The translations under genes were made by a program, and so were the position numbers. A model generated the notes under the pieces. It was not told the DNA's origin and ran no database searches. It saw only the letters and a list, made by a program, of their open reading frames with translations. A stretch of DNA of 64,000 bases from Alphaproteobacteria bacterium (GTDB lineage Bacteria; Pseudomonadota; Alphaproteobacteria; UBA7887): NCBI GenBank assembly GCA_030739735.1, contig JASLYQ010000001.1:62001-126000 (forward strand), written 5' to 3'. This document shows, piece by piece, positions 5,581 to 31,949 of this stretch (the first letter of the stretch is position 1; every line of letters starts with the position of its first letter).

Positions 5581-5582
5581 GG

Positions 5583-5990: not shown

Positions 5991-6025
5991 GTCAGGTTGG
6001 TACAATAAATCTGGGAGGGGCCATC

Positions 6026-7753: not shown

Positions 7754-7764
7754 ACGTTCTCTCC

Positions 7765-8010
7765 CTAGTTATTGCGCGCCATCATAGCACTCCAGAACAA
7801 CAGTCCTCCGCCGTCGGCCTCGATCAGATAGAGCATGATGTGATCATGCTTTAGGCTCGCTGGCGACTATCGTGCGCAAGCGGCGCGTACAGCTGCCGAG
7901 CGGCCATGGCATAGCCGCCGTCAACGACGTCGACGATGTGCACGTGGCGCGACTTTTCAAGACTGAACACGAGGCAGGTCATGATGGCTTGCGTCGCGGC
8001 GATGTTGGCT
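7765..8010 (-). pseudogene. Unidentified frameshifted gene remnant
   Basis: Two coding-like minus-strand segments in different frames abut here. The upstream one contains SRHVHIVDVVDGGYAMAARQ and stops at 7851-7853. One frame away the text resumes as LKHDHIMLYLIEADGGGLL and stops at 7765-7767. Read together they look like the last 80 or so residues of one protein with a frameshift near 7855. I do not recognise the family. The upstream part runs into the end of the cytochrome gene, so the remnant has lost its N-terminus. Confidence 0.4.
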
Positions 8011-8016: not shown

Positions 8017-8412
8017 CTACCAGATGATCTTGTCGGGGTCACCTTCGTAGAGCGAGCGGATATAGGCGATGAGCTTCCAGATCTGCTCGTCGCTGAGGTC
8101 CTTCGACCAACCCACCATGTTGGTGCCGGGCCGGCCCTGGGAGATGGCCTTAAACAGGGTCTTGTCGGTCGGTGTGTAGACCCAATCGTCGTCGGTTAGG
8201 CTAGGGCCAAGGCCCCCTTCCGCCTTGCCGCCGTGGCAGCTGTAACAGCCGGCGCTGCCCCACAGCGACTTGCCCTCGGCGACCGCTGCCGTGTCGTCCA
8301 TATAGGGATTGCCGTCGTTTCCCGGCGCCGCGGTGATATTGGCCTCGTCACCGATACCCGCATGGGCGGGGAGGATGAAGAGCAATAAAGCGAGGAGCCG
8401 TAAATAAGGCAT
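8017..8412 (-). CDS. Periplasmic c-type cytochrome
   Basis: A 131-residue secreted monoheme cytochrome c. The signal peptide MPYLRLLALLLFILPAHA decides the start; an open frame to 8472 exists but would bury it. Heme attachment is C56-Y-S-C59-H60 and the likely axial methionine is M99 in GTNMVGW. It lies downstream of the PQQ alcohol dehydrogenase on the same strand, so it is probably the electron acceptor of that enzyme, as with cytochromes cL and c550 in known systems. An intrinsic terminator between the two genes should make its expression lower or separate. Confidence 0.88.
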   Translation of the reverse strand: MPYLRLLALLLFILPAHAGIGDEANITAAPGNDGNPYMDDTAAVAEGKSLWGSAGCYSCHGGKAEGGLGPSLTDDDWVYTPTDKTLFKAISQGRPGTNMVGWSKDLSDEQIWKLIAYIRSLYEGDPDKIIW

Positions 8413-8434
8413 ACCGATTCTGTCGCAAATGTCC

Positions 8435-8471
8435 AAAAAAGTGCCCTCGAGGCGCCGTGGCCTCGAGGGCA
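8435..8471 (-). terminator. Intrinsic terminator between PQQ dehydrogenase and cytochrome c
   Basis: A perfect 12-base stem (TGCCCTCGAGGC at 8442-8453 pairing with 8460-8471) encloses a six-base loop. On the minus strand a run of six T follows at 8440-8435. It sits 19 bases past the dehydrogenase stop and 22 bases before the cytochrome start, so it may attenuate rather than end transcription. Confidence 0.85.
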
Positions 8472-8489
8472 TATTATGCAGCTTGGCGT

Positions 8490-10205
8490 CTAGTGCAATG
8501 CGAAGCCGACGATGATACCGCCCTTGCGGCTACCTTTCAGCCACGGCGCGCCACCCTGGCCGAAATGGGCCCAGCCGGTCCAACCGCCGAAGCCAGACGG
8601 CACGGCGATATATTGCGTGCCGTCAACCGTGTAGGTCGACGGGCTGCCGAAGATGCCGGAGCCGGTCTGGAACGACCACAGTTCTTCGCCCGTGTCCTGA
8701 TCATAGGCGCGGAACTCGCCCTCCGGCGTGCCGGCGAAGACTAGGCCGCCACGTGTCGAGAGCAGGCCGCTGGTAAAGGGCGAGCGGTCCTTGACCACCC
8801 ACATCTTCTCACCAGTGCGTCCGTCGAAGGCAACGAGTTGCCCATGGCCAGTGTTCCAGCCCACGGTGCCAATGCCCCAATAGGGCTTACCGATGGTGCG
8901 CTCGGGTGGGTTGAGGCCGGCGCCGATCGGTGCGCTCATAATATCGACACAGATTTCGCGACTTGGCACGAACACCCAGCCAGTGTCCGGGTTCACGGTC
9001 ATCGGGTTCCACCACTTGCCGCCTTCCGAGGCCGGGCAGATGTTCTTGGCCTCGTAGTCGTAGGTCGGAACCTTCTCCATATTCCAGATCGGCCGGCCCT
9101 CGTAGGTGAAGCCGGTAGCCCAGTTCACGATCGAGATCGGCACGCCGTAGCGGAACCTACCGTTGGTGCGATCGATCTTATACAGGAAGCCGTTGCGATC
9201 ACCGTGTAACCAGACCTTCTCGGAGCCATAGTCGACTAGGATAGGCTCATTGTTGCCGTCATAATCCCAAACGTCGGCCGGCGTGTACTGAAAGTAGAAC
9301 TGGATCTCTCCGGTATCCGGATCTAGCGCCAGGGTGGAGTTGGAGTAGAGGTTGTCGCCGGGACGTACGGTGCCGTCCCAGTCGGGATTAGGATTGCCGA
9401 CACCCCAATAGAGTAGATCGAGCTCGGGGTCGTAGGAGCCGGTTAGCCAGGTTGAGGCGCCGCCATGCATGGCTGCATCGGTCGAGCCCCAGGTGTCGTG
9501 GCCGGGCTCTCCGGGCCCCGGGATCGTATAGGTGCGCCAAGCCTGCGCGCCGGTCTCACTATCAAGCGCCTCGATATAGAGGCGGGTCGGATATTCGGCG
9601 CCCGACATGCCAACAACGACATTGCCTTTGACCACGAGCGGCGCCACCGTCATGGTAATGGCCTTCTCCCAGTCACCGACGGTGACGTCCCAGACAACCT
9701 CGCCCGTGCCCTTGTTCAGGGCTACAACATGACTGTCCGGCGTGGCCACGAATACTTTGTCGCCATAGAGCGCGACGCCGCGATTACCAATATCGCAGCA
9801 CATCTTGCCGGCAACGCCTTCCGGCATCTGATGCGCGTAGCGCCAGATCTCGGTGCCGTTCTCGGCATCGAGCGCATAGGTGTGCCCGTGTGAAGCGGTG
9901 GCATACATGACGCCGTTGTGCACCACAGGCGTTGTGTTCTGAGCGTCGAGCGTGCCCAGCGAGAAGATCCACTTCGGCACCAGCTCGCCGACATTGCCCG
10001 TATTGATCTGTCCCAGGGTGCTGTAGCGGTTGCCCGTGTAGTTGCCGGGCGCCATCAGCCAATTGTTGGGATCTCCTGCCGCTGAGCGCAGCATTTCGTC
10101 CGTGACGATCTCCTGGGCATGCGGGCCGCTCGCGAAAAGCGGCATGGCCGCCACAGCAACGCCCGCGATGAGCGCCACAAAGACCTTAAGGCATTTCTTC
10201 CACAT
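8490..10205 (-). CDS. PQQ-dependent alcohol dehydrogenase, probable lanthanide type
   Basis: A 571-residue periplasmic quinoprotein of the methanol/ethanol dehydrogenase family that oxidises primary alcohols and passes electrons to cytochrome c. It has a signal peptide of about 30 residues and an eight-bladed propeller with repeated GxxxW blade motifs. The vicinal disulfide pair is C136-C137. Likely metal ligands are E204 and N271, and the catalytic Asp is D314. In WDYDGNNE a second acidic residue, D316, lies two positions after the catalytic one. In characterised enzymes this extra Asp marks lanthanide-dependent XoxF/ExaF/PedH types, whereas calcium enzymes have Ala, Ser or Thr there. Its cofactor would come from the pqq genes 4 kb away. 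Confidence 0.92.
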   Translation of the reverse strand: MWKKCLKVFVALIAGVAVAAMPLFASGPHAQEIVTDEMLRSAAGDPNNWLMAPGNYTGNRYSTLGQINTGNVGELVPKWIFSLGTLDAQNTTPVVHNGVMYATASHGHTYALDAENGTEIWRYAHQMPEGVAGKMCCDIGNRGVALYGDKVFVATPDSHVVALNKGTGEVVWDVTVGDWEKAITMTVAPLVVKGNVVVGMSGAEYPTRLYIEALDSETGAQAWRTYTIPGPGEPGHDTWGSTDAAMHGGASTWLTGSYDPELDLLYWGVGNPNPDWDGTVRPGDNLYSNSTLALDPDTGEIQFYFQYTPADVWDYDGNNEPILVDYGSEKVWLHGDRNGFLYKIDRTNGRFRYGVPISIVNWATGFTYEGRPIWNMEKVPTYDYEAKNICPASEGGKWWNPMTVNPDTGWVFVPSREICVDIMSAPIGAGLNPPERTIGKPYWGIGTVGWNTGHGQLVAFDGRTGEKMWVVKDRSPFTSGLLSTRGGLVFAGTPEGEFRAYDQDTGEELWSFQTGSGIFGSPSTYTVDGTQYIAVPSGFGGWTGWAHFGQGGAPWLKGSRKGGIIVGFALH

Positions 10206-10791: not shown

Positions 10792-12189
10792 TCATGGTAT
10801 CCCTTTGTCTACTAACAGTGGTCGTGGATCCACTACGTTCTTGCCGAGCCCCACGGCCGTCTCGTCGAGACCGAAGGCGAGCGCCGCAAGCTGAGTTCCG
10901 TGCAGGATTGGCAGCTCGCTATCAAGGCCGAGCTGGGGCTGTCTGGCGTCGAGGTTGAGATGGCACATCGGACACATAGTGACGACGGCCTCGGCGCCAG
11001 CCGCACGAGCTTTATCAAGCACCGTGCGCGACATCTCCTGCGCGACATGCGTCTGGCTCAGGCCCAGGGCGCCGCCGCAACACGCGGTCTTGTGCGACCA
11101 ATCGAGGGGTTCCGCAGCCAGCGCGCGCACCATGTCGTCCATGCGGCGTGGATATTCCGGGTGCTCGGCGCCGGTCAGCGCTGCCGGCCGGGTGATCAGG
11201 CAGCCATAGTAGCAGGCGACCTTTAGCCCATTAAGCGGGCGCCTGACGCGTGACCTGATCTCGGGCAAACCTGCGCGCTCAACAAGCGTATCGAGAAAAT
11301 GCTCGACCTTGACCGTGCCGCGATAGGAGTAGCCCGCTTTGGCCCGCGCTTGGCTCGAGATATCGCCGCCGTGCCGATCGGTACGCTCAGCCGACTTCAG
11401 CCTAGCAAAGCATTTGCTGCAGGGTGAGGTCACTGTGTCGAGCCCCATCCGCTCGACACTGGCGATGCCGCGCATGGGCATACCGATAGCCATCACCGGG
11501 TCGGTCGCCGGTGCCGGGGTGGCACCACAACATTGCCAATCCGGCGGCTCGACCAGCTCGATGTCGAGCGCCGCAGCGGTGGCGCGCACGCTGCGACCAT
11601 ATTCGACAGAGGTCGAATCTAGCGCGCAGCCAGGAAAGAAGCCTACCGCCTTATCACTCTGCACCGACGCGGGTTTCACCCGGCGCGGCAGGCTAGGGAA
11701 GAGATGGAGCCTACCGCGCCTGATCAGCGCCCAACCCATGCGCAGATCCTTGAACAGCTTGCCCTGGGCCAGGTTCAGCAGCACACCAAAGCCGAACTCC
11801 CAGGCTCGGCCGAAAAATTTCACATGCCCCATAAAGAGGTGGTTGAAGCGCGCTATTCCGGGCACGCCGGGGGCCACACCGCGCCGCTTGGACTCGACGC
11901 AGAGTGCGGCCATGACCGCGGCCACGTCGATCTCCTGCGGGCAGCGCGTGGTGCAGGTCTGGCATGAGGCACAAAGCCAGATCGTGTGGCTCGCCAGCAC
12001 ACCCGTGTCGTCGAGTTGAAGGCTGCGCATAACCTGGTTGGGTGCAAGGTCTAAATGCCTGGCCAGCGGGCAGCCGCTGGTGCAGCGGCTGCACTGGTAG
12101 CAACGAAACACGTTGTCGCCAGTCGCCTGGCTGATGGCCTCGGCGAGTGAACCGGCCTCCGCGGGCGCCTCTATCATTGCCGTGCTCAT
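10792..12189 (-). CDS. HdrC-HdrB fusion (heterodisulfide reductase-like iron-sulfur protein)
   Basis: A 465-residue fusion. The N-terminal HdrC part has two [4Fe-4S] motifs, C30/C33/C36/C40 and C73/C76/C79/C83. The C-terminal HdrB part has two CCG domains, with CCG at 220-222 and 370-372 and their partner cysteines C257/C260 and C406/C409. CCG domains bind the noncubane clusters that reduce disulfides in methanogens. In bacteria, HdrBC homologues instead form an electron relay between HdrA and a partner oxidoreductase. It is the last gene of the five-gene unit, overlapping metF by four bases. A partner role with MetF is inferred from this context. Confidence 0.88.
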   Translation of the reverse strand: MSTAMIEAPAEAGSLAEAISQATGDNVFRCYQCSRCTSGCPLARHLDLAPNQVMRSLQLDDTGVLASHTIWLCASCQTCTTRCPQEIDVAAVMAALCVESKRRGVAPGVPGIARFNHLFMGHVKFFGRAWEFGFGVLLNLAQGKLFKDLRMGWALIRRGRLHLFPSLPRRVKPASVQSDKAVGFFPGCALDSTSVEYGRSVRATAAALDIELVEPPDWQCCGATPAPATDPVMAIGMPMRGIASVERMGLDTVTSPCSKCFARLKSAERTDRHGGDISSQARAKAGYSYRGTVKVEHFLDTLVERAGLPEIRSRVRRPLNGLKVACYYGCLITRPAALTGAEHPEYPRRMDDMVRALAAEPLDWSHKTACCGGALGLSQTHVAQEMSRTVLDKARAAGAEAVVTMCPMCHLNLDARQPQLGLDSELPILHGTQLAALAFGLDETAVGLGKNVVDPRPLLVDKGIP

Positions 12190-13169
12190 AACACCGGCCG
12201 CGGCTCAAGGCCGGCTGCCTCTACGATAGGCCCGACCACGGCCTCCCACTCGATGGCCATAATATGCACGCCAGCCACGCCTTCAATCTCGCGCACCTGC
12301 TCAATTTGCTCGACGCAAATCCTGATGCCCTCGGCGCGCCAGGCTTCTTGTCGCGCCGGCTTGTCCTCCTTGGCGATATCAGCCACTGCACCTGCCATGC
12401 GCTCGATATATTCGTCGGCCACGGTCATACCGGGAACCCTGTCGCGCATGTAGCGCGCCATGCCGGCGCTCTTGAGGGGCCCGACGCCAGCCAGGATGGC
12501 AACCCTTTCGTGCAAGCCCATATCGACCACACGCTTCATGTAGTCGTGGAACAGAGGCATGTCGAAGATCAGCTGAGTCTGCACAAAATCGGCTCCAGCG
12601 GCGATCTTTTTAGCGAGGCGAAAGTGGCGCAGGTCGACTGGGTCGGCGAAGGGATTTGCGGCAGCGCCGATAAACAGGCGTGGACCACCGCCAGGAATCT
12701 CCTCGCCACACTGGAAGTGGTTTTCGTCGCGCATATCCTTGGCCATGCGCAGCAGCTGCATGGAATCGATATCGTGGACGTTCTTAGCGCCCTGGTGATT
12801 GCCGAACGACTGGTGGTCGCCGCTGAGGCAGAGCACATTGGTGATGCCATGTCCTGCAGCGCCCAGTAAATCGCTCTGCATGGCCAGGCGGTTGCGATCG
12901 CGACAAGTCATCTGGATGACTGGCTCGAGGCCCTCCTGCACCATGGCAATACCGGCGGCAATGCTGCTCAGGCGCACGATGCCGGTCTGGTTGTCGGTGA
13001 TGTTCGCCGCATCCACATGACCCTTGAGCAGCTCGATCTTCTCGCGCACCTGCGCCATATCGTGGCTCTTGGGCGGCCCCAACTCAGCAGTGACAGCAAA
13101 ATGCCCCTGCGCCAGAACACCCTCCAGATTGCTGCGGGTCTTCCGAGTCTCTGATATTGCGCCGTCCAT
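12186..13169 (-). CDS. metF: Methylenetetrahydrofolate reductase
   Basis: An FAD-containing TIM-barrel enzyme of about 327 residues that interconverts methylene- and methyl-tetrahydrofolate. Hallmarks include the N-terminal VTAELGPPKSHD, NITDNQTG with the folate-contacting acidic residues, the NVLCLSGDH loop and ADFVQTQLIFD. Either the GTG at 13172 or the ATG at 13169 could start it; both overlap the metV stop. MetF clustered with metV and hdr genes belongs to the type that lacks an NADH site and depends on partners for electrons in acetogens. This differs from the stand-alone MetF of methionine synthesis. The overlap with metV and hdrCB supports a complex. Confidence 0.92.
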   Translation of the reverse strand: MDGAISETRKTRSNLEGVLAQGHFAVTAELGPPKSHDMAQVREKIELLKGHVDAANITDNQTGIVRLSSIAAGIAMVQEGLEPVIQMTCRDRNRLAMQSDLLGAAGHGITNVLCLSGDHQSFGNHQGAKNVHDIDSMQLLRMAKDMRDENHFQCGEEIPGGGPRLFIGAAANPFADPVDLRHFRLAKKIAAGADFVQTQLIFDMPLFHDYMKRVVDMGLHERVAILAGVGPLKSAGMARYMRDRVPGMTVADEYIERMAGAVADIAKEDKPARQEAWRAEGIRICVEQIEQVREIEGVAGVHIMAIEWEAVVGPIVEAAGLEPRPVL

Positions 13170-13855
13170 CACTCGCCCTCAGCGTCCGGCATACGCAGGT
13201 CGTCACGAACGATACGCCTGAGGCCGCCGTCTCTGCTGGTCGACCAATCCTTGACCGGCTCGACCTCCATCAACCGATCCATCAGACCAAGTTTGGCCGA
13301 GCGCTCCCATATCATTTGCCAGGCGCAGGGGATGGAGGGATCAACCTCGCACTTCCCGTCCTGAGTGCCACCGCAGGGTCCGTTGAATAGCGATTTGGCG
13401 CAGCGCGTTACCGGGCAGATGCCCGCCGTCTTGTCGAGCACACAACTGCCGCAGGCCTGACAGCGCTCCTCCCAGACACCCTGCTCTGTGGGTCGGCCCA
13501 TGAAGGTCGTGTTGAGTGCCGGCAGCACGCGCTTATCGGGGTATCGATCGGCCAGACTTTGGACGCCGATGCCGCAGCCGAGCGAGAGGATGGCGTCGTA
13601 GTCGTCGAGCCCTTCGGCCAACGGCTCGAGGTATTCATCCTCGCACTGGCGCTGCACCGTGGTCTCCTCGACCGCCAGCGGCTCGCCGTCAACACGGCTT
13701 GCCATGCGCAGCGACGAGGCGAGAATACCGACCTCGCGGGCGCTGCCGGCGAAGCAAACCGTGACGCAGGTGCCGCAGCCCACGGCAAGCACCTTGCGGC
13801 AGCCTTCCATCATCGATGTGATTGCCGCGAGCGGCTTCTGTTCAGCGACGATCAT
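13169..13855 (-). CDS. metV: MetV, methylenetetrahydrofolate reductase zinc/iron-sulfur partner
   Basis: A 228-residue protein of the MTHFR C-terminal family. It has a cysteine-rich N-terminal segment (CRKVLAVGCGTCVTVCFAG) and a second cluster, CQACGSCVLDKTAGICPVTRC, followed by the family mark LFNGPCGGTQDGKCE. In acetogens MetV binds MetF and Fe-S clusters that feed its flavin. It is encoded directly upstream of metF with a shared stop/start and overlaps mvhD by four bases. Identification is good; electron path details are inferred from homologous systems. Confidence 0.88.
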   Translation of the reverse strand: MIVAEQKPLAAITSMMEGCRKVLAVGCGTCVTVCFAGSAREVGILASSLRMASRVDGEPLAVEETTVQRQCEDEYLEPLAEGLDDYDAILSLGCGIGVQSLADRYPDKRVLPALNTTFMGRPTEQGVWEERCQACGSCVLDKTAGICPVTRCAKSLFNGPCGGTQDGKCEVDPSIPCAWQMIWERSAKLGLMDRLMEVEPVKDWSTSRDGGLRRIVRDDLRMPDAEGE

Positions 13856-14301
13856 GTTTCACCTTCAAGCTGATCGTTCCCTATGCGCAAGGGGCTAGCG
13901 CCCAGCGCCCTGACTTCCTCGACCATCTCCGAGGCATGCTCGGCAAACTGCGCACCCATCGCCGCCGAGATGTTGACCATACGAATACGCGCCTCGTCGA
14001 GGCCGATCTCGGCGAGCTGTCGGCGCACGTAGTCCACGCGTTGCTTGGCATACAGGTTCCCCGTCTGGTAATGACACTTGCCCGACAAGCAGCCGGCGAC
14101 GAGAACACCATCGACGGCGGCCTCGAAGCTGCGCAGCACCGTCAGCACGTCGACGCGGCCGGTACACGGCAACTCAACGATCTTCAGCGACGGCGGATAG
14201 GAAAGCCGCGACGAGCCCGCAAGATCGGCCGCCGCATAGGCGCAATGGCGGCAGCAGAAGGCGATGATGGAGGGTTCAAAATCGGGCTCGGAGTCGCTCA
14301 T
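13852..14301 (-). CDS. mvhD: MvhD-like [2Fe-2S] electron transfer subunit
   Basis: A 149-residue protein of the methyl-viologen-reducing hydrogenase delta family. Conserved cysteines lie in AFCCRHCAYAAADLAG (C16, C17, C20), in VELPCTGRV and in VAGCLSGKCHYQTGN. In methanogens MvhD delivers electrons from the hydrogenase to HdrA. Here no hydrogenase genes are present, so it probably links HdrA to MetFV or to a pyridine-nucleotide module. It overlaps hdrA and metV by four bases each. Confidence 0.9.
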   Translation of the reverse strand: MSDSEPDFEPSIIAFCCRHCAYAAADLAGSSRLSYPPSLKIVELPCTGRVDVLTVLRSFEAAVDGVLVAGCLSGKCHYQTGNLYAKQRVDYVRRQLAEIGLDEARIRMVNISAAMGAQFAEHASEMVEEVRALGASPLRIGNDQLEGET

Positions 14302-17300
14302 GCCGGAACTCCCTCAAGCATTTCTGGGCTGAACAATGCATCGATTTTCGACATTACCTGACCGTCGGTATAGTGGCGGAGCTCGATCGCCTGGGCCGGG
14401 CAGGCTGCGGCGCACAATCCACAGCCTTGGCACAATGCCGGCTCGATCGCTGCCGCACCTGGAATGCCGCCGACGCCGGGAAGCTCGGTATCAATGCGCG
14501 TTGCACCGTAGGCGCAGCTTCGCACACAAGTCAGACAGCCAACGCAAAGCGCGGTATCAACCGTAGCGACCTGGCCGCCGACTGTGATGGTGTCTTTCGA
14601 CAGCACCCGCGCGGCGCGTGCCGCCGCCGCCCGAGCTTGGACGATGGCCTCATCGAGCAACTTTGGGTAATGCGCCAAGCCGGCCATGAAGATGCCTTCG
14701 GAAAGAAAATCGACCGGACGCAACTTGACATGTGCCTCAAGGAAATAGCCTTCCATGTCGACGGGAACCTTGAGGCGGTTGCTCAGCTCCTGCGTTGCCG
14801 GCGCTGGCACGACAGGGGTGCTGAGTACCAGCAGATCAGGCTGCAACACCATCTCCTTGCCCAGAATTTCTTCCCAGGCGCGCACTTCGACGGTGTTCCC
14901 ATCGACACTAACGGTTGGCTTGCGCGCGGCCTCATAGCGCAGGAAGATGATGCCGCTCTCGCGCGCCTCCGTATAGAGCCTCTCCTTGAAGCCGTACACA
15001 CGCATGTCGCGGTAGATCACAGTTATGCGGACGCTGGGGTCGAGGCGCTTGAGCACGAGCGCGTTCTTCAGCGCCGAGGTACAGCAGATACGTGCGCAAT
15101 ACCGCTCCGCGGGACCGACACATTGGATCATCACCACGGACTTAGGCAGGTTTTCTCCCGCGGCCAGCAACCCCTCAAACTGTTGCTGGGTGACGATGCG
15201 CGGGCTCGACCCGTAGCCGTATTCGTCGCCGCGATATTCAACGCCGCCAGTGGCGAGCACAGTGACACCATGAGCCACCTCCACAGTGCCGCCGCTGCCA
15301 GTGAGGGCCGAAGAGAAGTTGCCGAGAAAGCCGCCGGTCGACCTCAGCTCGCTGCCGAGATGCAGGGTGACCAGCGGGTGAGACCCTACCGCCTTTACAA
15401 GCTCGGCCAGAAAAGCCTGGGGATCGGCCTCGGCGTCGCAGCCAAAATGGAGTTGGCGCAGGTTACCGCCCAGGCTGTCCTCGCGCTCGACAAGATCCAC
15501 CGGAAAACCCTGCTCGGCCAGCGCCAGGGTTGCGGTCATGCCCGCGGCACCACCGCCGACAACCAGGGCGGTCTTGACGATCGGCATCTCGGCGGTTTCC
15601 AGCGGCCGTAGCCGCGCTGCCCGTGCCGTCGACATGCGCACCAGGTCCTTGGCTTTCTCAGTCGCCGCCTGGCGTTGTTGGCCATGCACCCATGAGCACT
15701 GATTGCGGATGTTGGCCATTTCGAAAAGATATGGGTTGAGTCCCGCTTCACGGATGCTGCTCTGAAACAGGGGCCCATGGGTGATCGGCGTACAGGCAGC
15801 CACCACAAGCCGGTTGGCGCCAAGCTCGCGCACCTTCTCGGTGATCTGCGCGATGCTGTCCTGCGAGCAGGCATAAAGCGTGTCCTCGGCGTGGATAACG
15901 CCCGGCAGCGCCTTGGCATATTCGGCAACGTCGGGGACATCGAGATAGCCGCCGATATTGGTACCGCAATGGCAAACGAAGACGGCGGTGCGCGTCTCAT
16001 CGTCTTCGACGCAGCGCTCGGGTGGATAGTAGGCTTCGCGTGCCAGGGTGCCGCGTGCGCGGGTCAACAGGGCAGCCGCGCTCGCCGCCGCACCGGATGC
16101 ATCGAGGAGCGATTCGGCGATGTCCTTGGGCTCGCGGAAAGTGCCCGCAGCAAAAACACCCGGCCGAGTCGTCTGCAACGGATCGAACGGTTGCGTCCGG
16201 CAGAAGCCATGGGCGTCGAGATCAATGCCGGAGCGCTCGCCGAGGACCCTGGCGCTGTCGCCGATTTCCATCCCGACCGAAAGCACCACCATGTCAAACT
16301 CCTCTGCCACCATCTCGCCGCTCTCGACATAATTCACCAGTAACCCGCCGCTAGCTGGGTTCTCCTCCAGCGACGACAGACGGCAGCGCACATAGCCGAT
16401 GCCGTGGGTCTCGCGGGCCTTGCGATAATAACCCTCGTAGCCCTTGCTGAAGGCACGCGTGTCCATCATGAAGACGACCGCCTCGGCGCTCGGTAGTTGC
16501 TCGATGAGCCGGCGCGCTTGCTTGGCGGCGTACATGCAGCAAACCGATGAACAATAATCGTGCGACTGGTCGCGCGAGCCTACACATTGCAGAAAGGCGA
16601 TTTTCTTTGGCGTCCCACCGTCGGATGGGCGCTGTATATTGCCAGTGGTGGGGCCGGAGGCGCTCAACAGCCGCTCAAGCTGGAGCGACGTGATGACGTT
16701 GGCATGGCGCCCGAAGCCGAGTTCCTCGGACAACTCCGCCCTGCTGGGCCGGAAGCCCGGTGTCAGTATTACCGCGCCAACCTCGATCTGGCGTGTACTC
16801 TCAGCCATCTCGTGGTCAATGGAGCCGAGCCCGCAGGCATCGGAGCACATCAGGCATTCCGAGCAGATGCCACAGGAGAGACACCGCGATGCTTCGGCCA
16901 TGGCCTGCAAAGAAGTGTAGCCGCCCTCGACCTCCACGAAGCTGCCCACGGCGTCTGCGCTCTCGATATACGGCTGGGGCTGGCGCGGTGCCAAAGCAAG
17001 CTCGCCCTTGAGCACGCGGGCATCGAGCTCGGTCTGGCTCAGCTCGGCGACAGCTGTTTTTGGCGCCGTCGCCGCCATGTCTTTGCCGCGTAAGTGGTGC
17101 TGAATCGCCGTGGCGCAGCGGTGCCCGCTGGCAACCGCCTCGATGACGAAGGCGGTACCGCTGATGCTATCGCCCGCGGCGAACACGCCAGGCCGACCGG
17201 TGGCACAGGTCTCGGGGTCGACGGCGATGGTCCAGCCCTTGGTAACGTTGACGCCGGCATCATCGGGGATAAAGCCGAGGCCGACGCGTTGGCCAACCGA

Positions 17301-18809
17301 GAAGATGATCACGTCAGCGACCAGAAGATGCTCGGAGCCGCGCTCGATTTGTGCCACCGGGCGGCCGTCCTCACCTGGCACGAAGGCTTCCACGCGCTGG
17401 CATTCGAGGCCAGCGACGCAGCCCGTCCCATCGTCGGTCACACGCAGGAAGTTGAGCCCGATGTGCATGGCGATACCTTCCGAGCGCGCCCAGGCAATCT
17501 GCTCATCGTCAGCCGGCATGCGGCCCGAGCTGCCGCGGACGGCCATTTGCACGTCACTGGCGCCAAGGCGCACCGCGGTGCGCGCCACATCGATGGCGAC
17601 GTCGCCGCCGCCGACCACCAGTACGCGCTTGCCCGCAATATCGACGCGCGGATCGGGAGCATCAGGGTCGCCGCACTCGGCCAGGCGAGCGTCGCGCAGA
17701 AAGCGCGTATTGACCAGCACGCCGTTTAGGTCGTTGCCGGGGATCGGCAGGCGGATGCCTTCATGGGCACCGACGGCGATCAGCACCGCATCAAAGCCCT
17801 GCTCAAACAGATCATCGAGCTGCTCTACCCGTGTTCCCAGCCTAAGCTCGACACCGAGGTCGAGAATGTCCTGTACCTCGCGGTCGACGGCCGCACCCGG
17901 TAGGCGGAATTCTGGCACGCCAACACGCAGCATGCCACCGGCGACGGGAAGGGCTTCGAAGACAGTGACACCATAGCCAGCGCGGCAAAGATCCTGGGCG
18001 GCGGTCATACCGCATGGCCCGGCGCCGATGATGGCGATGCGCTCGTCGAAGCAGCGCGGGATGGGCTCTGGCGCAACCCGCGGCTTGGCGTTAACGCTGT
18101 CGGTGACGAAGCGCTTGAGACCGCGGATGTTGATCGCCTCGTCAACCTTGGTGCGGCTGCATGCTGTCTCGCAGCGGTGGTCGCAGATGCGCCCGCAGAC
18201 CGCGGCAAAGGGATTGTCCTCGACGATGGTGCGATAGGCGTCGTCGATGCGGCCCTCGCGGATCAGCGAGATGTAACCTTGAGCGCGCTGGCCTGCGGGG
18301 CAGGCCTCGCGACAAGGGGCGATACCGCGCTTCTCGATGGCATATGTGTCGGGCGTCGCCTGGGGATACAAGCGGTGCGCCGCCGTGCGCTGGCTGAGGC
18401 CTTCGTCAAAACCATTGGAGACGCGCTCGGGACAGACCTCGGCGCATTCGCCGCAGCCATTACAGGTGGCAAGATCGACATAGCGCGGCTCGGTACGCAG
18501 CGTGGCACTGAAGTTGCCGGGCTCGCCGGCAAGTGCGGTGACCTGGCTGCCGGTGAGAATCTCGACATTGAGATGGCGGCCGACCTCGACCAGGCGCGGT
18601 GAGATGGTGCACATGGCACAGTCGTTGGTCGGGAAAGTCTTGTCGAGTTGTGCCATATGGCCGCCGATCGCGGACTTTTCCTCGACCAGATAGACCTTGT
18701 AGCCGGCATCGGCGAGGTCGAGCGAGGCCTGCATGCCGGCAATCCCACCGCCAACCACCATGACAGCGCCGATTACCTCACGCTCAGCGGAAGGACCGCC
18801 TACCGTCAT
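14298..18809 (-). CDS. hdrA: Giant HdrA-GltD-HdrA fusion flavoprotein
   Basis: A 1503-residue cytosolic flavoprotein, more than twice the length of methanogen HdrA. Order: HdrA FAD site VVGGGIAGM (19-26) with C64/C67, and a ferredoxin-like CNGCGECAEVCP (116-127). Then a complete GltD-like NAD(P)H:FAD module (about 160-590) with Cys clusters 166-217, IIGAGPCGM at 260 and VVGGGDVAID at 398. Then Cys-rich CLSCGICSECLMCSDAC (643-659) and the rest of HdrA. A second HdrA copy follows from about 940, with VVGGGAAGM at 1083. Two C-terminal [4Fe-4S] sites lie near 1422-1432 and 1460-1471. HdrA is the flavin-based bifurcating subunit in known complexes. The inserted GltD module suggests direct NAD(P)H exchange (inference). 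First gene of the hdr-met operon. Confidence 0.92.
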   Translation of the reverse strand: MTVGGPSAEREVIGAVMVVGGGIAGMQASLDLADAGYKVYLVEEKSAIGGHMAQLDKTFPTNDCAMCTISPRLVEVGRHLNVEILTGSQVTALAGEPGNFSATLRTEPRYVDLATCNGCGECAEVCPERVSNGFDEGLSQRTAAHRLYPQATPDTYAIEKRGIAPCREACPAGQRAQGYISLIREGRIDDAYRTIVEDNPFAAVCGRICDHRCETACSRTKVDEAINIRGLKRFVTDSVNAKPRVAPEPIPRCFDERIAIIGAGPCGMTAAQDLCRAGYGVTVFEALPVAGGMLRVGVPEFRLPGAAVDREVQDILDLGVELRLGTRVEQLDDLFEQGFDAVLIAVGAHEGIRLPIPGNDLNGVLVNTRFLRDARLAECGDPDAPDPRVDIAGKRVLVVGGGDVAIDVARTAVRLGASDVQMAVRGSSGRMPADDEQIAWARSEGIAMHIGLNFLRVTDDGTGCVAGLECQRVEAFVPGEDGRPVAQIERGSEHLLVADVIIFSVGQRVGLGFIPDDAGVNVTKGWTIAVDPETCATGRPGVFAAGDSISGTAFVIEAVASGHRCATAIQHHLRGKDMAATAPKTAVAELSQTELDARVLKGELALAPRQPQPYIESADAVGSFVEVEGGYTSLQAMAEASRCLSCGICSECLMCSDACGLGSIDHEMAESTRQIEVGAVILTPGFRPSRAELSEELGFGRHANVITSLQLERLLSASGPTTGNIQRPSDGGTPKKIAFLQCVGSRDQSHDYCSSVCCMYAAKQARRLIEQLPSAEAVVFMMDTRAFSKGYEGYYRKARETHGIGYVRCRLSSLEENPASGGLLVNYVESGEMVAEEFDMVVLSVGMEIGDSARVLGERSGIDLDAHGFCRTQPFDPLQTTRPGVFAAGTFREPKDIAESLLDASGAAASAAALLTRARGTLAREAYYPPERCVEDDETRTAVFVCHCGTNIGGYLDVPDVAEYAKALPGVIHAEDTLYACSQDSIAQITEKVRELGANRLVVAACTPITHGPLFQSSIREAGLNPYLFEMANIRNQCSWVHGQQRQAATEKAKDLVRMSTARAARLRPLETAEMPIVKTALVVGGGAAGMTATLALAEQGFPVDLVEREDSLGGNLRQLHFGCDAEADPQAFLAELVKAVGSHPLVTLHLGSELRSTGGFLGNFSSALTGSGGTVEVAHGVTVLATGGVEYRGDEYGYGSSPRIVTQQQFEGLLAAGENLPKSVVMIQCVGPAERYCARICCTSALKNALVLKRLDPSVRITVIYRDMRVYGFKERLYTEARESGIIFLRYEAARKPTVSVDGNTVEVRAWEEILGKEMVLQPDLLVLSTPVVPAPATQELSNRLKVPVDMEGYFLEAHVKLRPVDFLSEGIFMAGLAHYPKLLDEAIVQARAAAARAARVLSKDTITVGGQVATVDTALCVGCLTCVRSCAYGATRIDTELPGVGGIPGAAAIEPALCQGCGLCAAACPAQAIELRHYTDGQVMSKIDALFSPEMLEGVPA

Positions 18810-19177
18810 TTACCGATCCTCCACGACACCGTGTTCCGACAGCAGTAGGTAATCCTACATCGGGGGGGTCGCTTACTTAGATGATGTCGCTTACTTAGAT
18901 CAAGGGGTCGGCAGCTGCCGCCAAGCAATCGATCAAGATGAGGATCCCCGGTGTCAGCAGCCTTGCCGGCAACATCAATGCTCGGATCCAGGCCAATTCC
19001 GAGCTCGAAGGTGTCAAGCAAGAGTGAGGGGCATCGTCTCGGCGGGGCGTACCGGCGTATGCAAAGACCGTGCTCAGGGATTGAGGCAGGTCAAGGTCCG
19101 CCCGGCAGTTTTCGCGCAAGATTTGTCTCTCCGGCGTGGTGGGGCCGCGCCGTCATGGCAATGAGCAACCGCTGGAG
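18810..19177. promoter_or_regulatory. Divergent hdrA / 2-oxoacid oxidoreductase control region with tandem repeat
   Basis: This 368-base space separates two divergent operons. It holds two direct copies of GTCGCTTACTTAGAT at 18868-18882 and 18886-18900 (18-base period). Next to them is a small dyad, GTAGG-TAAT-CCTAC, at about 18845-18858. The 18-base phasing (under two helical turns) suggests binding of a regulator near the hdrA promoter. A short frame at 18938-19027 shows no recognisable product. Confidence 0.5.
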
Positions 19178-19741
19178 ATGATGTTTCGGGTCCGAATACA
19201 CGGTCGGGGAGGCCAAGGCGTGGTGACTGCGGCTGAGCTGCTTTCGATGGCGGCCTTCTTCGAGGACAAGCATGCCCAAGCCTTTCCTAGCTTCGGCTCG
19301 GAGCGCATGGGTGCGCCGGTCGTCTCCTACTGCCGTATTGACGACAGCGAAATCCGCTTGCGCGAGCCCATCAACAGCCCCGACGCACTCATCATCCAGG
19401 ATCCGACGCTGCTGCTTTCCGTCGACGTATTTCATGGCCTCGAGCGGGATGGCTTCATCCTGATCAATTCGCAGCGCTCGTTCGAGGAGTTGGGTATCGC
19501 TGAGTTCGTCGCAAAATTTCCGTTCGGCCACGTCTGCAATGTGGGCGCCACGGATCTCGCCTTAAAGCATGTCGGACGACCGCTGCCGAATGCTGCCTTG
19601 TTGGGGGGCTTTGCCGCCATCTCGGACGAGATCCGCCTGGCTTCGGTCGAAAAGGCGATCCACCAAAAGTTTTCCGGCGAGATCGGCCAGGCCAACGTCG
19701 CCGCCGCGCGCGAAGCCTTCGAAAGCCTCAAGGCAGCCTAG
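19178..19741 (+). CDS. porG: 2-oxoacid:ferredoxin oxidoreductase, gamma subunit
   Basis: The gamma domain of pyruvate/2-oxoacid:ferredoxin oxidoreductase, about 187 residues, beginning MMFRVRIHGRGGQGVVTAAE. The RxHGRGGQG motif is the family signature, and FPSFGSERMGAPV follows as expected. The frame is open from 19136, but the extra 14 residues have no family counterpart. First gene of a four-gene plus-strand operon, three bases before porA. The enzyme decarboxylates a 2-oxoacid with CoA to acyl-CoA and reduced ferredoxin, or the reverse. Confidence 0.9.
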   Translation: MMFRVRIHGRGGQGVVTAAELLSMAAFFEDKHAQAFPSFGSERMGAPVVSYCRIDDSEIRLREPINSPDALIIQDPTLLLSVDVFHGLERDGFILINSQRSFEELGIAEFVAKFPFGHVCNVGATDLALKHVGRPLPNAALLGGFAAISDEIRLASVEKAIHQKFSGEIGQANVAAAREAFESLKAA

Positions 19742-19744
19742 GGC

Positions 19745-21007
19745 ATGTCCGGATTGCAGCAGATCGAAGGCTCGCTCGCTGTCGCCCAGGCCATCGCGCT
19801 GTGCCGACCCGAAGTAGTCTGCGCCTATCCCATTACGCCACAGACCCATATCGTCGAAGGCGTCTGCGCGCTGGTGAGAACCGGCAAGCTGAAGAACTGC
19901 GAGTTCATCAACGTCGAATCCGAGTTCGCCGCGCTATCCGTCGCCATCGGCGCCTCCGCCGCCGGCGCCCGTGCCTATACCGCAACAGCCAGCCAGGGCA
20001 TCCTGCATATGGCGGAGGCGATCTACAATGCTGGGGGACTTGGCCTGCCCATCGTCATGACGGTCGGTAACCGCGCCATCGGCGCGCCGATCAATATATG
20101 GAACGACCACATGGATTCCATGGCGGTCAAGGATGCCGGCTGGATCCAGCTTTTCGCGGAAACCAACCAGGAAGCGGTCGACCTGCATATTCAGGCCTTC
20201 CGCCTGGCCGAGGAGTTGAGCTGTCCGGTCATGGTTTGCATGGACGGCTTCATCCTCACCCACGCCTATGAGCGCGTCGACATCCCGACGCAAGCGCAGG
20301 TCGATGCCTTCCTGCCGCCCTATGAGCCGGTGCAGGTGTTGGACCCGGCCGAGCCGTACTCGATCGGTGCCATGGTGGGGCCCGACGCCTATACCGAAGT
20401 GCGCTATCTCGCGCACGAGAAACAATTGCAGGCGCTGCGTCTGATTCCCGAGATCGGGCGCGTCTTTGAGGGCGTATTCGGCCGCACATCCTGTGGCCTT
20501 GTCTATTCCTATCGCACCGAAGGCGCCGATGTGGTTGCGGTGGCGCTCGGCTCTGTCAACGGCACCATCAAGGAAGTTGTCGACGCCATGCGCGCCGACG
20601 GCGCCGCGGTCGGCTCGGTCAGTGTCACCTCTTTCCGACCGTTTCCCCTCGAAGAATTGCGAGTCGCGCTCGGTGACGCGAAACATGTGGTGGTGATCGA
20701 GAAGAACCTGGCGCCGGGACTGGGCGGCATGGTCGCCTCCGATATCCGCATGGCGCTCCGCGATACACCGATCCAGATCTATACGGTCATCGCCGGGCTT
20801 GGTGGTCGGCCCATCACCATGGCAGCACTGCAGGAAGTGCTGGCGGGCGCCGGCGACGGCAAGCTCCCGGACATGCAGTTTCTCGACCTCGATCACGGAA
20901 TCGTCGAGCACGAGATCATCCGTTCGCATCGGGTTAGGCGCTCCGGTCCGACCGCCGAGAACATCCTACGAAACCCGGCCGCAACGATCGCACAGGCCGA
21001 GAATTAG
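19745..21007 (+). CDS. porA: 2-oxoacid:ferredoxin oxidoreductase, alpha subunit
   Basis: A 420-residue alpha chain with the pyrimidine-binding TPP domain. CAYPITPQTHIVE at the N-terminus is the classic PorA motif, and ESEFAALSVAIGASAAGAR and TATASQGILHMAEA follow. A transketolase C-terminal-type domain covers about 235-370. Sequence style is that of pyruvate-type enzymes, but pyruvate versus other 2-oxoacids cannot be settled here. Three bases separate it from porG and 12 from porB. Confidence 0.92.
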   Translation: MSGLQQIEGSLAVAQAIALCRPEVVCAYPITPQTHIVEGVCALVRTGKLKNCEFINVESEFAALSVAIGASAAGARAYTATASQGILHMAEAIYNAGGLGLPIVMTVGNRAIGAPINIWNDHMDSMAVKDAGWIQLFAETNQEAVDLHIQAFRLAEELSCPVMVCMDGFILTHAYERVDIPTQAQVDAFLPPYEPVQVLDPAEPYSIGAMVGPDAYTEVRYLAHEKQLQALRLIPEIGRVFEGVFGRTSCGLVYSYRTEGADVVAVALGSVNGTIKEVVDAMRADGAAVGSVSVTSFRPFPLEELRVALGDAKHVVVIEKNLAPGLGGMVASDIRMALRDTPIQIYTVIAGLGGRPITMAALQEVLAGAGDGKLPDMQFLDLDHGIVEHEIIRSHRVRRSGPTAENILRNPAATIAQAEN

Positions 21008-21019
21008 AGGAGGCTGATC

Positions 21020-22036
21020 ATGGCTCAGGACAGCGCTCTGCAACGCGTGAAGTTTTACCAGACTGGCACCCATACGGTGGGCAACCGGCTGATGGACGAA
21101 GAGGCCCGCAGCGTCCAAGCCTCTATGGAGCGCTCTAACGCCATCACCTCCGGTCATCGTGCCTGCCAGGGCTGTGGCGAAGCGCTCGGCGCTCGCTATG
21201 CCCTGGATGTCGCAATGCGGGCGACCGGGGGACAGCTTGTCGCCGTCAATGCCACAGGCTGCCTCGAAGTGTTCACCACGCCGTATCCGGAAACCTCGTG
21301 GCAGATCCCCTGGCTACACTCCCTGTTCGGCAACGCGCCGGCGGTTGCCACGGGTGTCGCCGCAGCCATGCGGCGCAAGGGACGGAACATAAAAGTGGTG
21401 GCGCAAGGCGGCGACGGTGGCACCACCGATATCGGTTTCGGTTGCCTATCGGGCATGTTCGAGCGCAACGACGACGTGCTCTATATTTGCTATGACAACG
21501 AAGCCTACATGAATACCGGTGTGCAGCGCTCTTCCGCAACACCGGCCACGGCGCGCACCGCGACCACACCGACGGTGGGTGGCGCGCCGGGAAATGTCTT
21601 CGGCACCGGCAAGAACCTGCCGCTGATTGCGATGGCACACAACATCCCTTACGTGGCGACGGCCACGGTTGCCGGCCTACACGATCTAGAAGCCAAGGTG
21701 AACAAGGCTATCGATATGGCCGGTGCCCGCTATCTTCATATCCTCGTACCTTGCCCGCTAGGCTGGGGCTCGGCACCGTGCGATACGATCCACATCGCGC
21801 GGCTCGCCGTCGAGAGCGGATTTTTCCCGGTATTCGAGGCGGAGCACGGCCGCGTCACCGCCGCACATAAGATCCGCCGCCAGTTGCCGGTGTCGGACTA
21901 TCTCAGGCCGCAGCGACGCTTCGCACACTTGTTCCGCAAGGGCACCGAGGATAGCGAAGGCGTGGCAACGCTGCAGCGCATGGCCGATGCCAATATCGAG
22001 CGCTTCAATCTGCTCGGTGAGAGGAAAAGCCCATGA
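21020..22036 (+). CDS. porB: 2-oxoacid:ferredoxin oxidoreductase, beta subunit
   Basis: A 338-residue beta chain binding the TPP pyrophosphate and one [4Fe-4S] cluster. Cysteines lie in HRACQGCGEALG and ATGCLEVF and further on in CPLGWGSAPC. The TPP/Mg motif is GGDGGTTDIGFGCLSGMFE, followed by ICYDNEAYMNTGVQRS, both diagnostic. A good AGGAGG ribosome site precedes the ATG. It overlaps the downstream flavoprotein by four bases. No separate delta ferredoxin gene exists in the operon; the next protein supplies those clusters. Confidence 0.93.
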   Translation: MAQDSALQRVKFYQTGTHTVGNRLMDEEARSVQASMERSNAITSGHRACQGCGEALGARYALDVAMRATGGQLVAVNATGCLEVFTTPYPETSWQIPWLHSLFGNAPAVATGVAAAMRRKGRNIKVVAQGGDGGTTDIGFGCLSGMFERNDDVLYICYDNEAYMNTGVQRSSATPATARTATTPTVGGAPGNVFGTGKNLPLIAMAHNIPYVATATVAGLHDLEAKVNKAIDMAGARYLHILVPCPLGWGSAPCDTIHIARLAVESGFFPVFEAEHGRVTAAHKIRRQLPVSDYLRPQRRFAHLFRKGTEDSEGVATLQRMADANIERFNLLGERKSP

Positions 22037-23670
22037 GCAAAAGGCTGCCTTTCGCCATTACTCTCGATCCCGGCACCAGCCTCGCCAACGTGACCGGAAC
22101 CTGGCGGACGGAAAGGCCTATCTACGTCGACCGCATGCCGCCCTGCAATGACGCCTGCCCGGCGGGCGAAAACATCCAAAAGTGGCTGTTTTATGCCGAA
22201 GAGGGCGCCTATGAGCAGGCCTGGCAGGTGCTAATGACGGACAATCCGCTGCCCGGCGTCATGGGCCGCGTCTGCTACCACCCTTGCGAGACGGCGTGCA
22301 ATCGCGGACAGCTGGACGAGCCCATCGGCATCCACGCCATCGAGCGCTTTCTGGGACGCACGGCCTGGGAGCATGGCTGGAAGGCGAAGTTCGATGCCGA
22401 GCGCTCGGGCAAGCGCGTGCTCGTGGTCGGCGCCGGGCCGAGCGGTCTTGCCGCTGCCTATCACCTCACCCGGCTCGGCCATGCCGTCACAATCCGCGAA
22501 GCCGGCCCCATGGCCGGCGGCATGATGCGCTTCGGCATCCCAAAATATCGCTTGCCACGCGATGTCCTGGACTACGAGATCCAGCGCATCGTCGACATGG
22601 GGGTCGAGTTGCAGCTCAACCGCAAGGTCGAGGATATCGAGGCCGCTTTCCGGGACGAGGGCTTCGACGCCGTATTTGCCGCCGTCGGCGCGCATTTAGC
22701 CAAGCGCATCGAGATCCCGGCCTATGCCGCAGGCAGAATCCTCGACGCGGTCAACCTGTTGCGCAACATGGAGACGGGCGCCGAGCCACCACAGCTCGGC
22801 CGCCGCGTCATCGTCTATGGCGGCGGCAACACGGCTATGGATGTAGCGCGAACCGCCAAGCGGCTCGGCGTCGAAGACACGATGATCGTCTACCGGCGCA
22901 CGCGAGAGCAGATGCCCGCCCACGACTTCGAGGCCGCCGGGGCCGAGGAGGAAGGGGTCATGATCCATTGGCTGCGCACCATCAAGCAGATTGACGAGAC
23001 CCGGTTCACCGTCGAAAAGATGGAGATTGATGAACAAGGTCGCCCACAGCCAACTGGCGAATTCGAGACGCTCGAGGCCGATACGCTGATCCTGGCGCTA
23101 GGCCAGGACGTCGAGACCGCGTTCCTGGATAACGTGCCGGGGGTCAATGTCGGTGAAGGCGGCATGGTGATGGTCGACGAGCAGATGATGACCGGTCGCG
23201 AAGGCCTATTCGCGGGTGGCGACATGGTGCCGGCCGAGCGCACGGTGACCGTGGCCATCGGTCATGGCAGGAAGGCGGCCAATCACATCGACGCCTGGCT
23301 CAGGGGTAAGCGCCACAAGCGTCCGTCAAGGCCCGAGCTTGCCGGGTTTGGCGTGCTCAACACCTGGTATTACGACGATGCCCCGAAGACGGTGCAGCCG
23401 CAGCTCGATCTTGTGCGCCGCCAATCCGACTTCGCAGAGGTGCTGCAGGGGCTAACCGAGGATAACGCGCTATACGAGGCTCGGCGCTGCCTATCCTGCG
23501 GCAATTGCTTCGAGTGCGACAACTGCTATGGCGTGTGTCCGGACAACGCGGTCAACAAGCTCGGCGCCGGCAAGCGCTTCGACTTCAACTACGACTATTG
23601 CAAAGGCTGCGGCATGTGCGCCGCCGAGTGCCCCTGTGCCGCCATCATTATGGTTCCGGAGACCGTTTGA
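22033..23670 (+). CDS. GltD-like FAD/NAD(P) oxidoreductase with C-terminal 2[4Fe-4S] ferredoxin domain
   Basis: A 545-residue flavoprotein related to the small subunit of glutamate synthase. The N-terminal Cys motifs are PPCNDACPAG and GRVCYHPCETACNRG, for Fe-S clusters. FAD site VVGAGPSGLAAAYH is near residue 136 and NAD(P) site VYGGGNTAMDVART near 260. The C-terminal ferredoxin has CLSCGNCFECDNCYGVCP and CKGCGMCAAECPC. In related clusters such proteins bridge NAD(P)H and the 2-oxoacid oxidoreductase through ferredoxin. The porB overlap supports that role here. It resembles the module embedded in HdrA across the divergent promoter. No glutamate synthase large subunit is nearby. Confidence 0.87.
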   Translation: MSKRLPFAITLDPGTSLANVTGTWRTERPIYVDRMPPCNDACPAGENIQKWLFYAEEGAYEQAWQVLMTDNPLPGVMGRVCYHPCETACNRGQLDEPIGIHAIERFLGRTAWEHGWKAKFDAERSGKRVLVVGAGPSGLAAAYHLTRLGHAVTIREAGPMAGGMMRFGIPKYRLPRDVLDYEIQRIVDMGVELQLNRKVEDIEAAFRDEGFDAVFAAVGAHLAKRIEIPAYAAGRILDAVNLLRNMETGAEPPQLGRRVIVYGGGNTAMDVARTAKRLGVEDTMIVYRRTREQMPAHDFEAAGAEEEGVMIHWLRTIKQIDETRFTVEKMEIDEQGRPQPTGEFETLEADTLILALGQDVETAFLDNVPGVNVGEGGMVMVDEQMMTGREGLFAGGDMVPAERTVTVAIGHGRKAANHIDAWLRGKRHKRPSRPELAGFGVLNTWYYDDAPKTVQPQLDLVRRQSDFAEVLQGLTEDNALYEARRCLSCGNCFECDNCYGVCPDNAVNKLGAGKRFDFNYDYCKGCGMCAAECPCAAIIMVPETV

Positions 23671-29093: not shown

Positions 29094-29185
29094 GTCAGAC
29101 CGTCCCGTCGCCCAGAGGCTCGATAAAGTGGCATCCTATAAGAAGGGACTTGCGTCAGGAAGCACTAGCAAACATATACGTCAAT

Positions 29186-29674: not shown

Positions 29675-29687
29675 TCGTTTCTTTTTA

Positions 29688-29718: not shown

Positions 29719-29860
29719 AGTCGATGGCGGCGCGCCTGCCAGAATTAGGTATGATATCCCCTTAATAGCCGGGCTGGGTCCCAGCAATGGCGGTTCTCGC
29801 CACCACCCGGTCAGCGTAGACTTGTGGCAACGTTGCACTGGTCCGAAAACGGGAGCGATC

Positions 29861-31819: not shown

Positions 31820-31949
31820 GCCGAAAAACGGTGACAGTTGATCAACCTGCGTAATTTCGGCAAGTGACAACGCCACGGCGGTATTACCGACGCCTGCCAC
31901 TTCAAAGGCCGCATCGACGCGTAGAAGAAGGTGAGCAGCGAGACTGAGG

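Follow-up and report, generated by a model that had tools for sequence, protein, structure and literature searches.

Can a multi-subunit methylene-tetrahydrofolate (methylene-THF) reductase of the kind found in acetogens be put to use by a bacterium that is equipped for oxygen respiration? This question is raised by a five-gene cluster, hdrA-mvhD-metV-metF-hdrCB, which is encoded in a draft alphaproteobacterial genome (2.64 Mb, 98.79% complete, 0.15% contaminated) and lies within the stretch of 64,000 nucleotides analyzed here (C1:62001-126000, hereafter called the window). Judged by its gene content, the five-gene set is a complete type IV methylene-THF reductase (MetVF-MvhD-HdrABC). A survey from 2018 assigned all putatively bifurcating Met complexes to obligate anaerobes and described bifurcating enzymes as nearly absent from aerobes, with the exception of Fix (excerpt of PMC6085437). 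With slightly better than even confidence we propose that a type IV complex built on the Moorella plan was acquired from a lineage of the Chloroflexota and that, in an oxygen-respiring alphaproteobacterium, it oxidizes methyl-THF and splits the electrons between NAD(P)+ and ubiquinone.

The cluster consists of five minus-strand open reading frames (ORFs), which extend from position 18809 to 10792 of the window, and all four junctions between them are 4-base overlaps, in agreement with the original prediction made from the sequence of the window. The first gene encodes HdrA (14298..18809, 1503 amino acids), which is composed of a flavin domain with a GltD insert and a second HdrA unit. It is followed by the gene of the electron-transfer adaptor MvhD/FlpD (13852..14301, 149 amino acids; PF02662 155 bits; NF045873 141.5 bits and under the cut-off of 215) and by the gene of a full-length MetV (13169..13855, 228 amino acids), the N-terminal half of which is rich in Cys and the C-terminal half of which matches PF12225 with 125.9 bits. 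MetF, the predicted catalytic subunit of a methylene-THF reductase of the MetVF type (12186..13172, 328 amino acids; PF02219 115.6 bits), is thus co-encoded with full-length MetV, and mvhD, hdrA, hdrB and hdrC lie in one operon with both. The last gene (10792..12189, 465 amino acids) encodes an HdrCB fusion that matches PF02754 with 80.9 bits as well as HdrC-type dicluster models. The prediction of a complete, Moorella-like MetVF-HdrABC-MvhD set is therefore supported by family models and by the domain plan of HdrA; the HdrC-HdrB fusion and the GltD insert were recognized in addition, as were a divergent 2-oxoacid oxidoreductase (Por) operon and a URO-D/corrinoid fusion, which are described below. 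As an identical gene order, including the fused HdrCB, recurs in 10 of the at least 80 related loci listed, the arrangement is not due to chance.

HdrA is the subunit in which electron bifurcation would take place. Residues 16-161 and 649-853 align with both parts of the flavin domain of HdrA in 5odc, with the ferredoxin insert present, and residues ~163-655, which split this first flavin domain, form an NAD(P)H domain of the GltD/Nfn/DPD type. A second HdrA unit is aligned by residues 937-1091 and 1309-1494. The same domain plan is given for Moorella HdrA by Kremp et al. (excerpt of PMC9430772). The bifurcation residues E356/K409 of archaeal HdrA correspond to E712/K763 in the first flavin domain and to E1212/K1248 in the second. 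Within an alignment of 37 rows, E712 and K1248 are found in 37/37, K763 and E1212 in 34/37, and one of the three departing rows is explained by an ambiguous base in a single related locus (L090). The scores for the family models NF040770 (878.6 bits, cut-off 1100) and NF041778 (652.4 bits, cut-off 1400) both stay under cut-offs that are tuned to archaeal proteins of different length.

The remaining subunits fit this assignment. HdrCB carries the [4Fe-4S] motifs of HdrC at residues 30 and 73 and two CCG motifs of HdrB starting from 188 and 330, and the motif cysteines are invariant across 15 aligned rows. The predicted model of the HdrB half superimposes on Methanothermococcus HdrB (5odc_B) with Z 34.4 and a root-mean-square deviation (rmsd) of 2.1 over 281 aligned residues, unrelated rows being near Z 7; the HdrC part of the model is of low confidence. 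The linker between HdrC and HdrB was checked for amphipathic stretches and gave unremarkable moments, and we do not claim a membrane anchor. MetV is 71-72% identical to homologs from Anaerolineales, aligns with Chloroflexota homologs over residues 1-224 and has invariant Cys columns (37 rows). A search for sequence relatives of MetV in the PDB found none, and its predicted fold gave weak matches (best Foldseek E 2.4e-3; for the N-terminal half a weak match to Dph2, best VIA Z 10.9, rmsd 2.5, 98 aligned residues), from which no function was drawn. MetF is 76-77% identical to the Chloroflexota enzymes of L067 and L068 and scores 63.2 bits against the type I model TIGR00676, far from the cut-off of 293.7.

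Where does such a cluster occur? With the MetV of the window as query, matches were obtained in 29 of 385 genomes sampled from the class and in 17 of 398 sampled from the phylum, the two samples overlapping; in both, a full-length match was confined to the cluster's own genome, and the other 28 genomes of the class match only from residue 131, which corresponds to a short form. A scan of named genomes with MetV yielded at least 80 loci. Among the matches listed, the best MetV relatives derive from Chloroflexota of the class Anaerolineae (up to 72%), and proteobacterial relatives from an uncultured beta proteobacterium (L072, 70%) and a member of the Acidiferrobacteraceae (L090, 71%). MvhD lies directly upstream of MetV in 68 of the loci listed and MetF directly downstream in 54, an HdrA match is found upstream in 62 and a fused HdrCB in 17; these counts are lower bounds, as contig ends cut many loci. 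One Anaerolineae locus (L070) holds two full-length MetV, one short MetV and three MetF matches within ~16 kb, beside HdrA, MvhD and HdrCB. At L090:3472-20207, a stretch with 60 ambiguous bases, an aldehyde ferredoxin oxidoreductase and a spore-photoproduct-lyase-like gene lie near the cluster.

In a tree of MetV plus MetF (54 rows) the window groups with L072 and L090 in a single clade, which has a support of 99 in the Shimodaira-Hasegawa-like approximate likelihood ratio test (SH-aLRT), within a group of 21 rows that includes 18 Chloroflexota. The HdrA tree (37 rows), a quick LG+G4 analysis that carries a long-branch warning, recovers the same clade with SH-aLRT 100 and places it among Chloroflexota; constraining nine Chloroflexota HdrA rows together was rejected by the approximately unbiased (AU) test (p 4e-5). 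Because of the shared proteobacterial clade and the nesting of HdrA in Chloroflexota, a transfer of the complex from the Chloroflexota side appears likely from these trees, although not every gene proves it.

The hosts differ in their metabolic equipment. Among the 16 host genomes searched, COX1 was present in 8 and acetyl-CoA synthase in 12, the latter lacking a match in L068, L087, L072 and L090; 12 of the 14 Chloroflexota hosts have acetyl-CoA synthase. All three proteobacterial hosts, i.e., those of the window, L072 and L090, have COX1, for L090 as a partial match to model positions 327-436, and no match to acetyl-CoA synthase. In the genome of the window COX1 is encoded at C1:138158-139510 on the same 251-kb contig as the cluster (PF00115 543.5 bits; 71-72% identity to Skermanella ctaD). 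The aerobic-looking host of the original prediction is hence in accordance with the gene content, which suggests aerobic growth. Searches of the genome for acetyl-CoA synthase (PF03598; control searches positive in 2/14 genomes), for RnfC_N of Rnf and for an MttB-type methyl donor each gave 0 matches.

Methyl groups could reach the complex from corrinoid enzymes encoded elsewhere in the genome. Contig C26 (L018:8495-18884) carries an MtaA/CmuA-family URO-D enzyme, a corrinoid protein, an RACo-type activator, an MT2-like Pterin_bind enzyme and CobW, together with an acetolactate-synthase-like enzyme dependent on thiamine pyrophosphate. A short metV, a metF and the gene of a GntR regulator are transcribed divergently from the corrinoid genes. 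The unfused MtaA/CmuA-family enzyme reaches 240.7 bits for TIGR01463 (cut-off 235.4), and a second corrinoid protein with two URO-D enzymes is encoded on contig C32. RACo was found in 25/25 genomes searched, including 9/9 of the host family, and in 1/14 control genomes; PF12225 was found in 2 of 9 family genomes searched. Since RACo is present in all nine family genomes, corrinoid methyl transfer is probably old in this family and the Hdr module new. Further B12 enzymes or subunits of the methylmalonyl-CoA-mutase type are encoded at L020:6225-8223, L021:7261-11765 and L024:7119-9074, a heavy B12 load for a 2.6-Mb genome.

Besides the MetF of the window, the genome encodes two complete MetFs and a remnant of a third. 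The MetF of C26 shares 64-68% identity with the MetFs of clusters on Sinorhizobium pSymB and in Paracoccus aminovorans, and 45% with the MetF of the window. The other complete enzyme is encoded on contig C4 and stands alone among genes for a carbamoyltransferase, an amidohydrolase, an FAD synthetase and a tRNA synthetase. The remnant lies on the minus strand of the same contig (L022:7905-8192) between metH (4435-7905, minus strand), the ORF of which looks intact, and an ArsR-type methyltransferase gene; a position beside metH is the usual neighborhood of metF in alphaproteobacteria. In the remnant an E. coli-type MetF start motif is joined to a MetF C-terminus with the middle missing, and the weak PF02219 match covers profile positions 226-287 only. 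This internal deletion may be a true event or an assembly fault. That a separate canonical NADH-dependent MetF might be the only active one had been named as an objection to the original prediction. The objection is weakened, as all three complete MetFs score under the TIGR00676 cut-off (70.2 bits for the enzyme of C26, 55.2 bits for the complete one of C4) and the metF beside metH is a remnant.

How could the complex then work? Methyl groups would be collected from a methylated substrate by URO-D-type methyltransferases and corrinoid proteins and be passed on to THF by the Pterin_bind methyltransferase (MT2). We infer that the five gene products assemble into one complex, in which MetF would take up electrons during the conversion of methyl-THF to methylene-THF and deliver them via MetV and MvhD to HdrA. 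The two E/K flavins of HdrA would split the electrons, with one branch leading to NAD(P)+ at the GltD insert and the other through HdrCB to ubiquinone, the quinone of alphaproteobacteria, and on to the cytochrome chain. In an oxidase-bearing host the complex would in this way become a respiratory enzyme. As far as the genes indicate, oxidation of methyl-THF is the likelier direction because of the corrinoid methyl-transfer cluster and because no match to acetyl-CoA synthase was obtained. Methyl-THF is what corrinoid systems produce, and the flow would hence run from methyl-THF to methylene-THF; as acetyl-CoA synthase is missing, methionine and oxidation would be the two obvious fates of methyl-THF. 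Oxidation with NAD+ alone is given as about +23 kJ/mol, and with quinone plus NAD+ as about -29 kJ/mol (excerpt of PMC9430772). The Moorella enzyme was reported to make no use of ferredoxin, and quinone was proposed for it, including for growth on methanol (excerpt of PMC13391211). Methyl-THF oxidation coupled to ferredoxin and NAD(P)H, as originally suggested, is therefore retained with regard to its direction, while the part of ferredoxin is less supported, given the Moorella report and the genome without an RnfC_N match.

Several points weigh against this proposal. Other genomes of the family with RACo lack a full MetV, so that the Hdr module is dispensable for corrinoid demethylation there, and it is not adjacent to MT2 in the genome studied here. 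The short MetV and MetF inside the C26 corrinoid cluster could perform the oxidation alone, by analogy with aerobic Ruegeria, for which single MetF2 enzymes have been proposed in this role. Enzymes of such kind can work in either direction, and the use of quinone derives from proposals in the literature. As to the origin, constraining the 18 Chloroflexota rows of the MetV plus MetF tree together was not rejected (AU p 0.306), and the metagenome-assembled genomes that host L072 and L090 come without a completeness value.

The window contains neighbors of the cluster that touch on these questions. Divergent from hdrA, at a distance of about 330-370 bases, the Por operon extends over 19136-23670 on the plus strand. 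It encodes PorG (19136..19741; TIGR02175 194 bits, cut-off 81), the model match of which starts at residue 16, so that the true start is possibly a later ATG, PorA (19745..21007; PF01855, PF17147), PorB (21020..22036; PF02775; NF008819 343.6 bits and under the cut-off of 405) and a fusion of a GltD-like NAD(P)H domain with a PorD ferredoxin (22033..23670; NF009410 764.6 bits, cut-off 516; TIGR02179 62.5 bits, cut-off 60.05). A role as conserved partner of the Hdr module is unsupported, given that no window-type Por match adjoins the cluster in L072 or L090; in L081 and L084, Por matches of 29-32% are situated ~5 kb past their HdrCB matches. Further downstream a candidate methyl donor enzyme is encoded (29822..31819, plus strand, 665 amino acids), in which a URO-D methyltransferase is fused to a corrinoid domain (PF02310 100, PF02607 66.8 and PF01208 28.1 bits; match to 1y80 with E 4.6e-53). 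An identification as CmuA was rejected, as the fusion has no match to TIGR01463 (MtaA/CmuA) at E 1e-10. Together with a MarR regulator and a branched-chain-type ABC transporter the fusion stands in a row at 29150-36948, a candidate unit for uptake and demethylation. A search of the window for RNA families, including the cobalamin riboswitch, gave no Rfam match at the gathering score. On the other side of the cluster, the predicted alcohol oxidation dependent on pyrroloquinoline quinone (PQQ) was recovered as a PQQ-dependent alcohol dehydrogenase (8490..10205, minus strand; TIGR03075 565 bits, cut-off 480) with an adjoining cytochrome c gene (8017..8472, minus strand; PF13442, PF00034); it is a neighbor with no demonstrated link to the complex. 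The enzyme carries the sequence WDYD, which we take to resemble lanthanide-type enzymes (Asp). Its nearest plasmid relatives are ~41-42% identical and of mixed taxa, and it is for this reason uninformative on the host.

Other explanations of the cluster have to be weighed against respiratory methyl-THF oxidation. The complex might be reductive and anabolic and supply methyl-THF to MetH for methionine, standing in for the deleted canonical MetF. The metF remnant directly upstream of the intact-looking metH ORF speaks for this, as does the reductive operation of type IV enzymes in acetogens, but two more complete MetFs persist, the corrinoid methyl-transfer route could itself provide methyl-THF, and a bifurcating complex of six functions would presumably be an expensive substitute; we regard this explanation as unlikely. 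Slightly less probable still is a confurcation, close to what was first predicted, in which reduced ferredoxin from the divergent Por enzyme would pull the oxidation of methyl-THF and yield NAD(P)H. It draws on the short distance between the Por operon and hdrA and on the ferredoxin insert retained in HdrA. However, Por has a GltD-like NAD(P)H domain of its own, fused to the delta subunit, and may for that reason not release ferredoxin; the lack of a window-type Por beside the clusters of L072 and L090, the reported failure of the Moorella enzyme to use ferredoxin (excerpt of PMC13391211) and the lack of an Rnf match in the genome likewise stand against it.

A use of the cluster solely at low oxygen, by a facultative cell that turns to its oxidase at other times, is possible though rather doubtful. 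Sensitivity to oxygen is a general trait of HdrABC and of corrinoid proteins, and acetyl-CoA synthase occurs in most of the Chloroflexota hosts; the genome has one COX1-type oxidase and the PQQ enzyme, however, and the hosts of L072 and L090 have COX1 as well. Highly improbable is an artefact of binning or assembly that placed Chloroflexota DNA in a proteobacterial genome, even though the closest relatives are mainly Chloroflexota and all sources are draft assemblies. The 251-kb contig that contains the cluster also encodes three proteins of alphaproteobacterial affinity, namely COX1, MoeA (about 50-53% identity to alphaproteobacteria) and, in the window, PntB (68-70% to Sinorhizobium, Phyllobacterium and Skermanella), the cluster stays inside the range of 21 flanking genes in codon usage and GC, and contamination amounts to 0.15%, so that contamination was judged unlikely. 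Two further proteobacterial bins, moreover, carry sister copies (L072 and L090), neither of which is a near-copy of a Chloroflexota cluster.

The complete set is a counter-example in kind to the survey of 2018, as the genome that encodes it has cytochrome c oxidase, shows an alphaproteobacterial context and gave no match to acetyl-CoA synthase. What is new is this setting, an oxidase-bearing alphaproteobacterium that has no acetyl-CoA synthase match, encodes corrinoid demethylases and carries its canonical metF in broken form; the type IV enzyme itself is known. A literature search, mainly of titles and the openings of abstracts, found no report of a type IV complex in an alphaproteobacterium. 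Only tentatively do we extend the proposal to a bifurcating methyl-THF oxidase that feeds corrinoid-borne methyl groups to an aerobic chain via NAD(P)+ and ubiquinone and that moved at least one time from Chloroflexota with the acetyl-CoA pathway to oxidase-bearing proteobacteria without acetyl-CoA synthase. Which molecule serves type IV reductases as their third electron carrier is described as still unknown (excerpt of PMC13391211). For telling the quinone model from the ferredoxin model, a host without the acetyl-CoA pathway and, to judge from its class, likely with high-potential ubiquinone would be better suited than an acetogen.

Among known systems, the demethylation of glycine betaine by MtgBCD-MetF2 in Ruegeria pomeroyi and the clusters with short MetV, MetF, MT2 and RACo in Sinorhizobium and Paracoccus resemble the C26 cluster, as aerobic alphaproteobacteria transfer corrinoid-bound methyl groups to THF in these cases as well. 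The Sinorhizobium and Paracoccus clusters hold an MttB-family gene, for which the genome of the window has no match, and unlike in the window, HdrA, MvhD and HdrCB are not annotated in the two 18-kb regions examined. The chloromethane pathway of Methylobacterium extorquens CM4 (CmuA/CmuB/MetF2) includes a methyltransferase-corrinoid fusion with the same domain pair as the fusion of the window. In this pathway the methyl group is transferred to THF and MetF2 serves for oxidation (excerpt of PMC3621897). Unlike CmuA, the fusion of the window has no TIGR01463 match at E 1e-10, and this family is represented by the unfused C26 enzyme.

The subunit set of Sporomusa ovata (HdrCBA-MvhD-MetVF) equals that of the window. 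Its complex is membrane-linked, and a coupling of methyl-THF oxidation to quinone has been proposed (excerpt of PMC9430772). The HdrA of Sporomusa differs from that of the window: it measures ~101 kDa, is without a GltD insert, and of its two flavin domains one contains the E/K pair (same excerpt). All subunits of the type IV enzyme of Moorella thermoacetica (HdrBCA-MvhD-MetVF) are common to the cluster of the window, as compared by domain plan and residues. HdrA comprises 1487 amino acids in Moorella and 1503 in the window, with the same order of a ferredoxin and a TrxR-like domain split by GltD, followed by a second unit without inserted ferredoxin, and both proteins have the E/K pair in both flavin domains (excerpt of PMC9430772). 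Unlike in Moorella, HdrC and HdrB are fused in the window, the gene order is HdrA-MvhD-MetV-MetF-HdrCB, and the host combines COX1 with the lack of an acetyl-CoA synthase match. The Chloroflexota hosts mostly bear acetyl-CoA synthase (12/14), in contrast to the genome of the window. In gene order, eight loci of Chloroflexota (Anaerolineae), L067, L068, L075, L079, L080, L083, L086 and L087, share the five-gene arrangement with fused HdrCB, and the identities of L067 and L068 to the window amount to 63-65% for HdrA, 71-72% for MetV and 76-77% for MetF.

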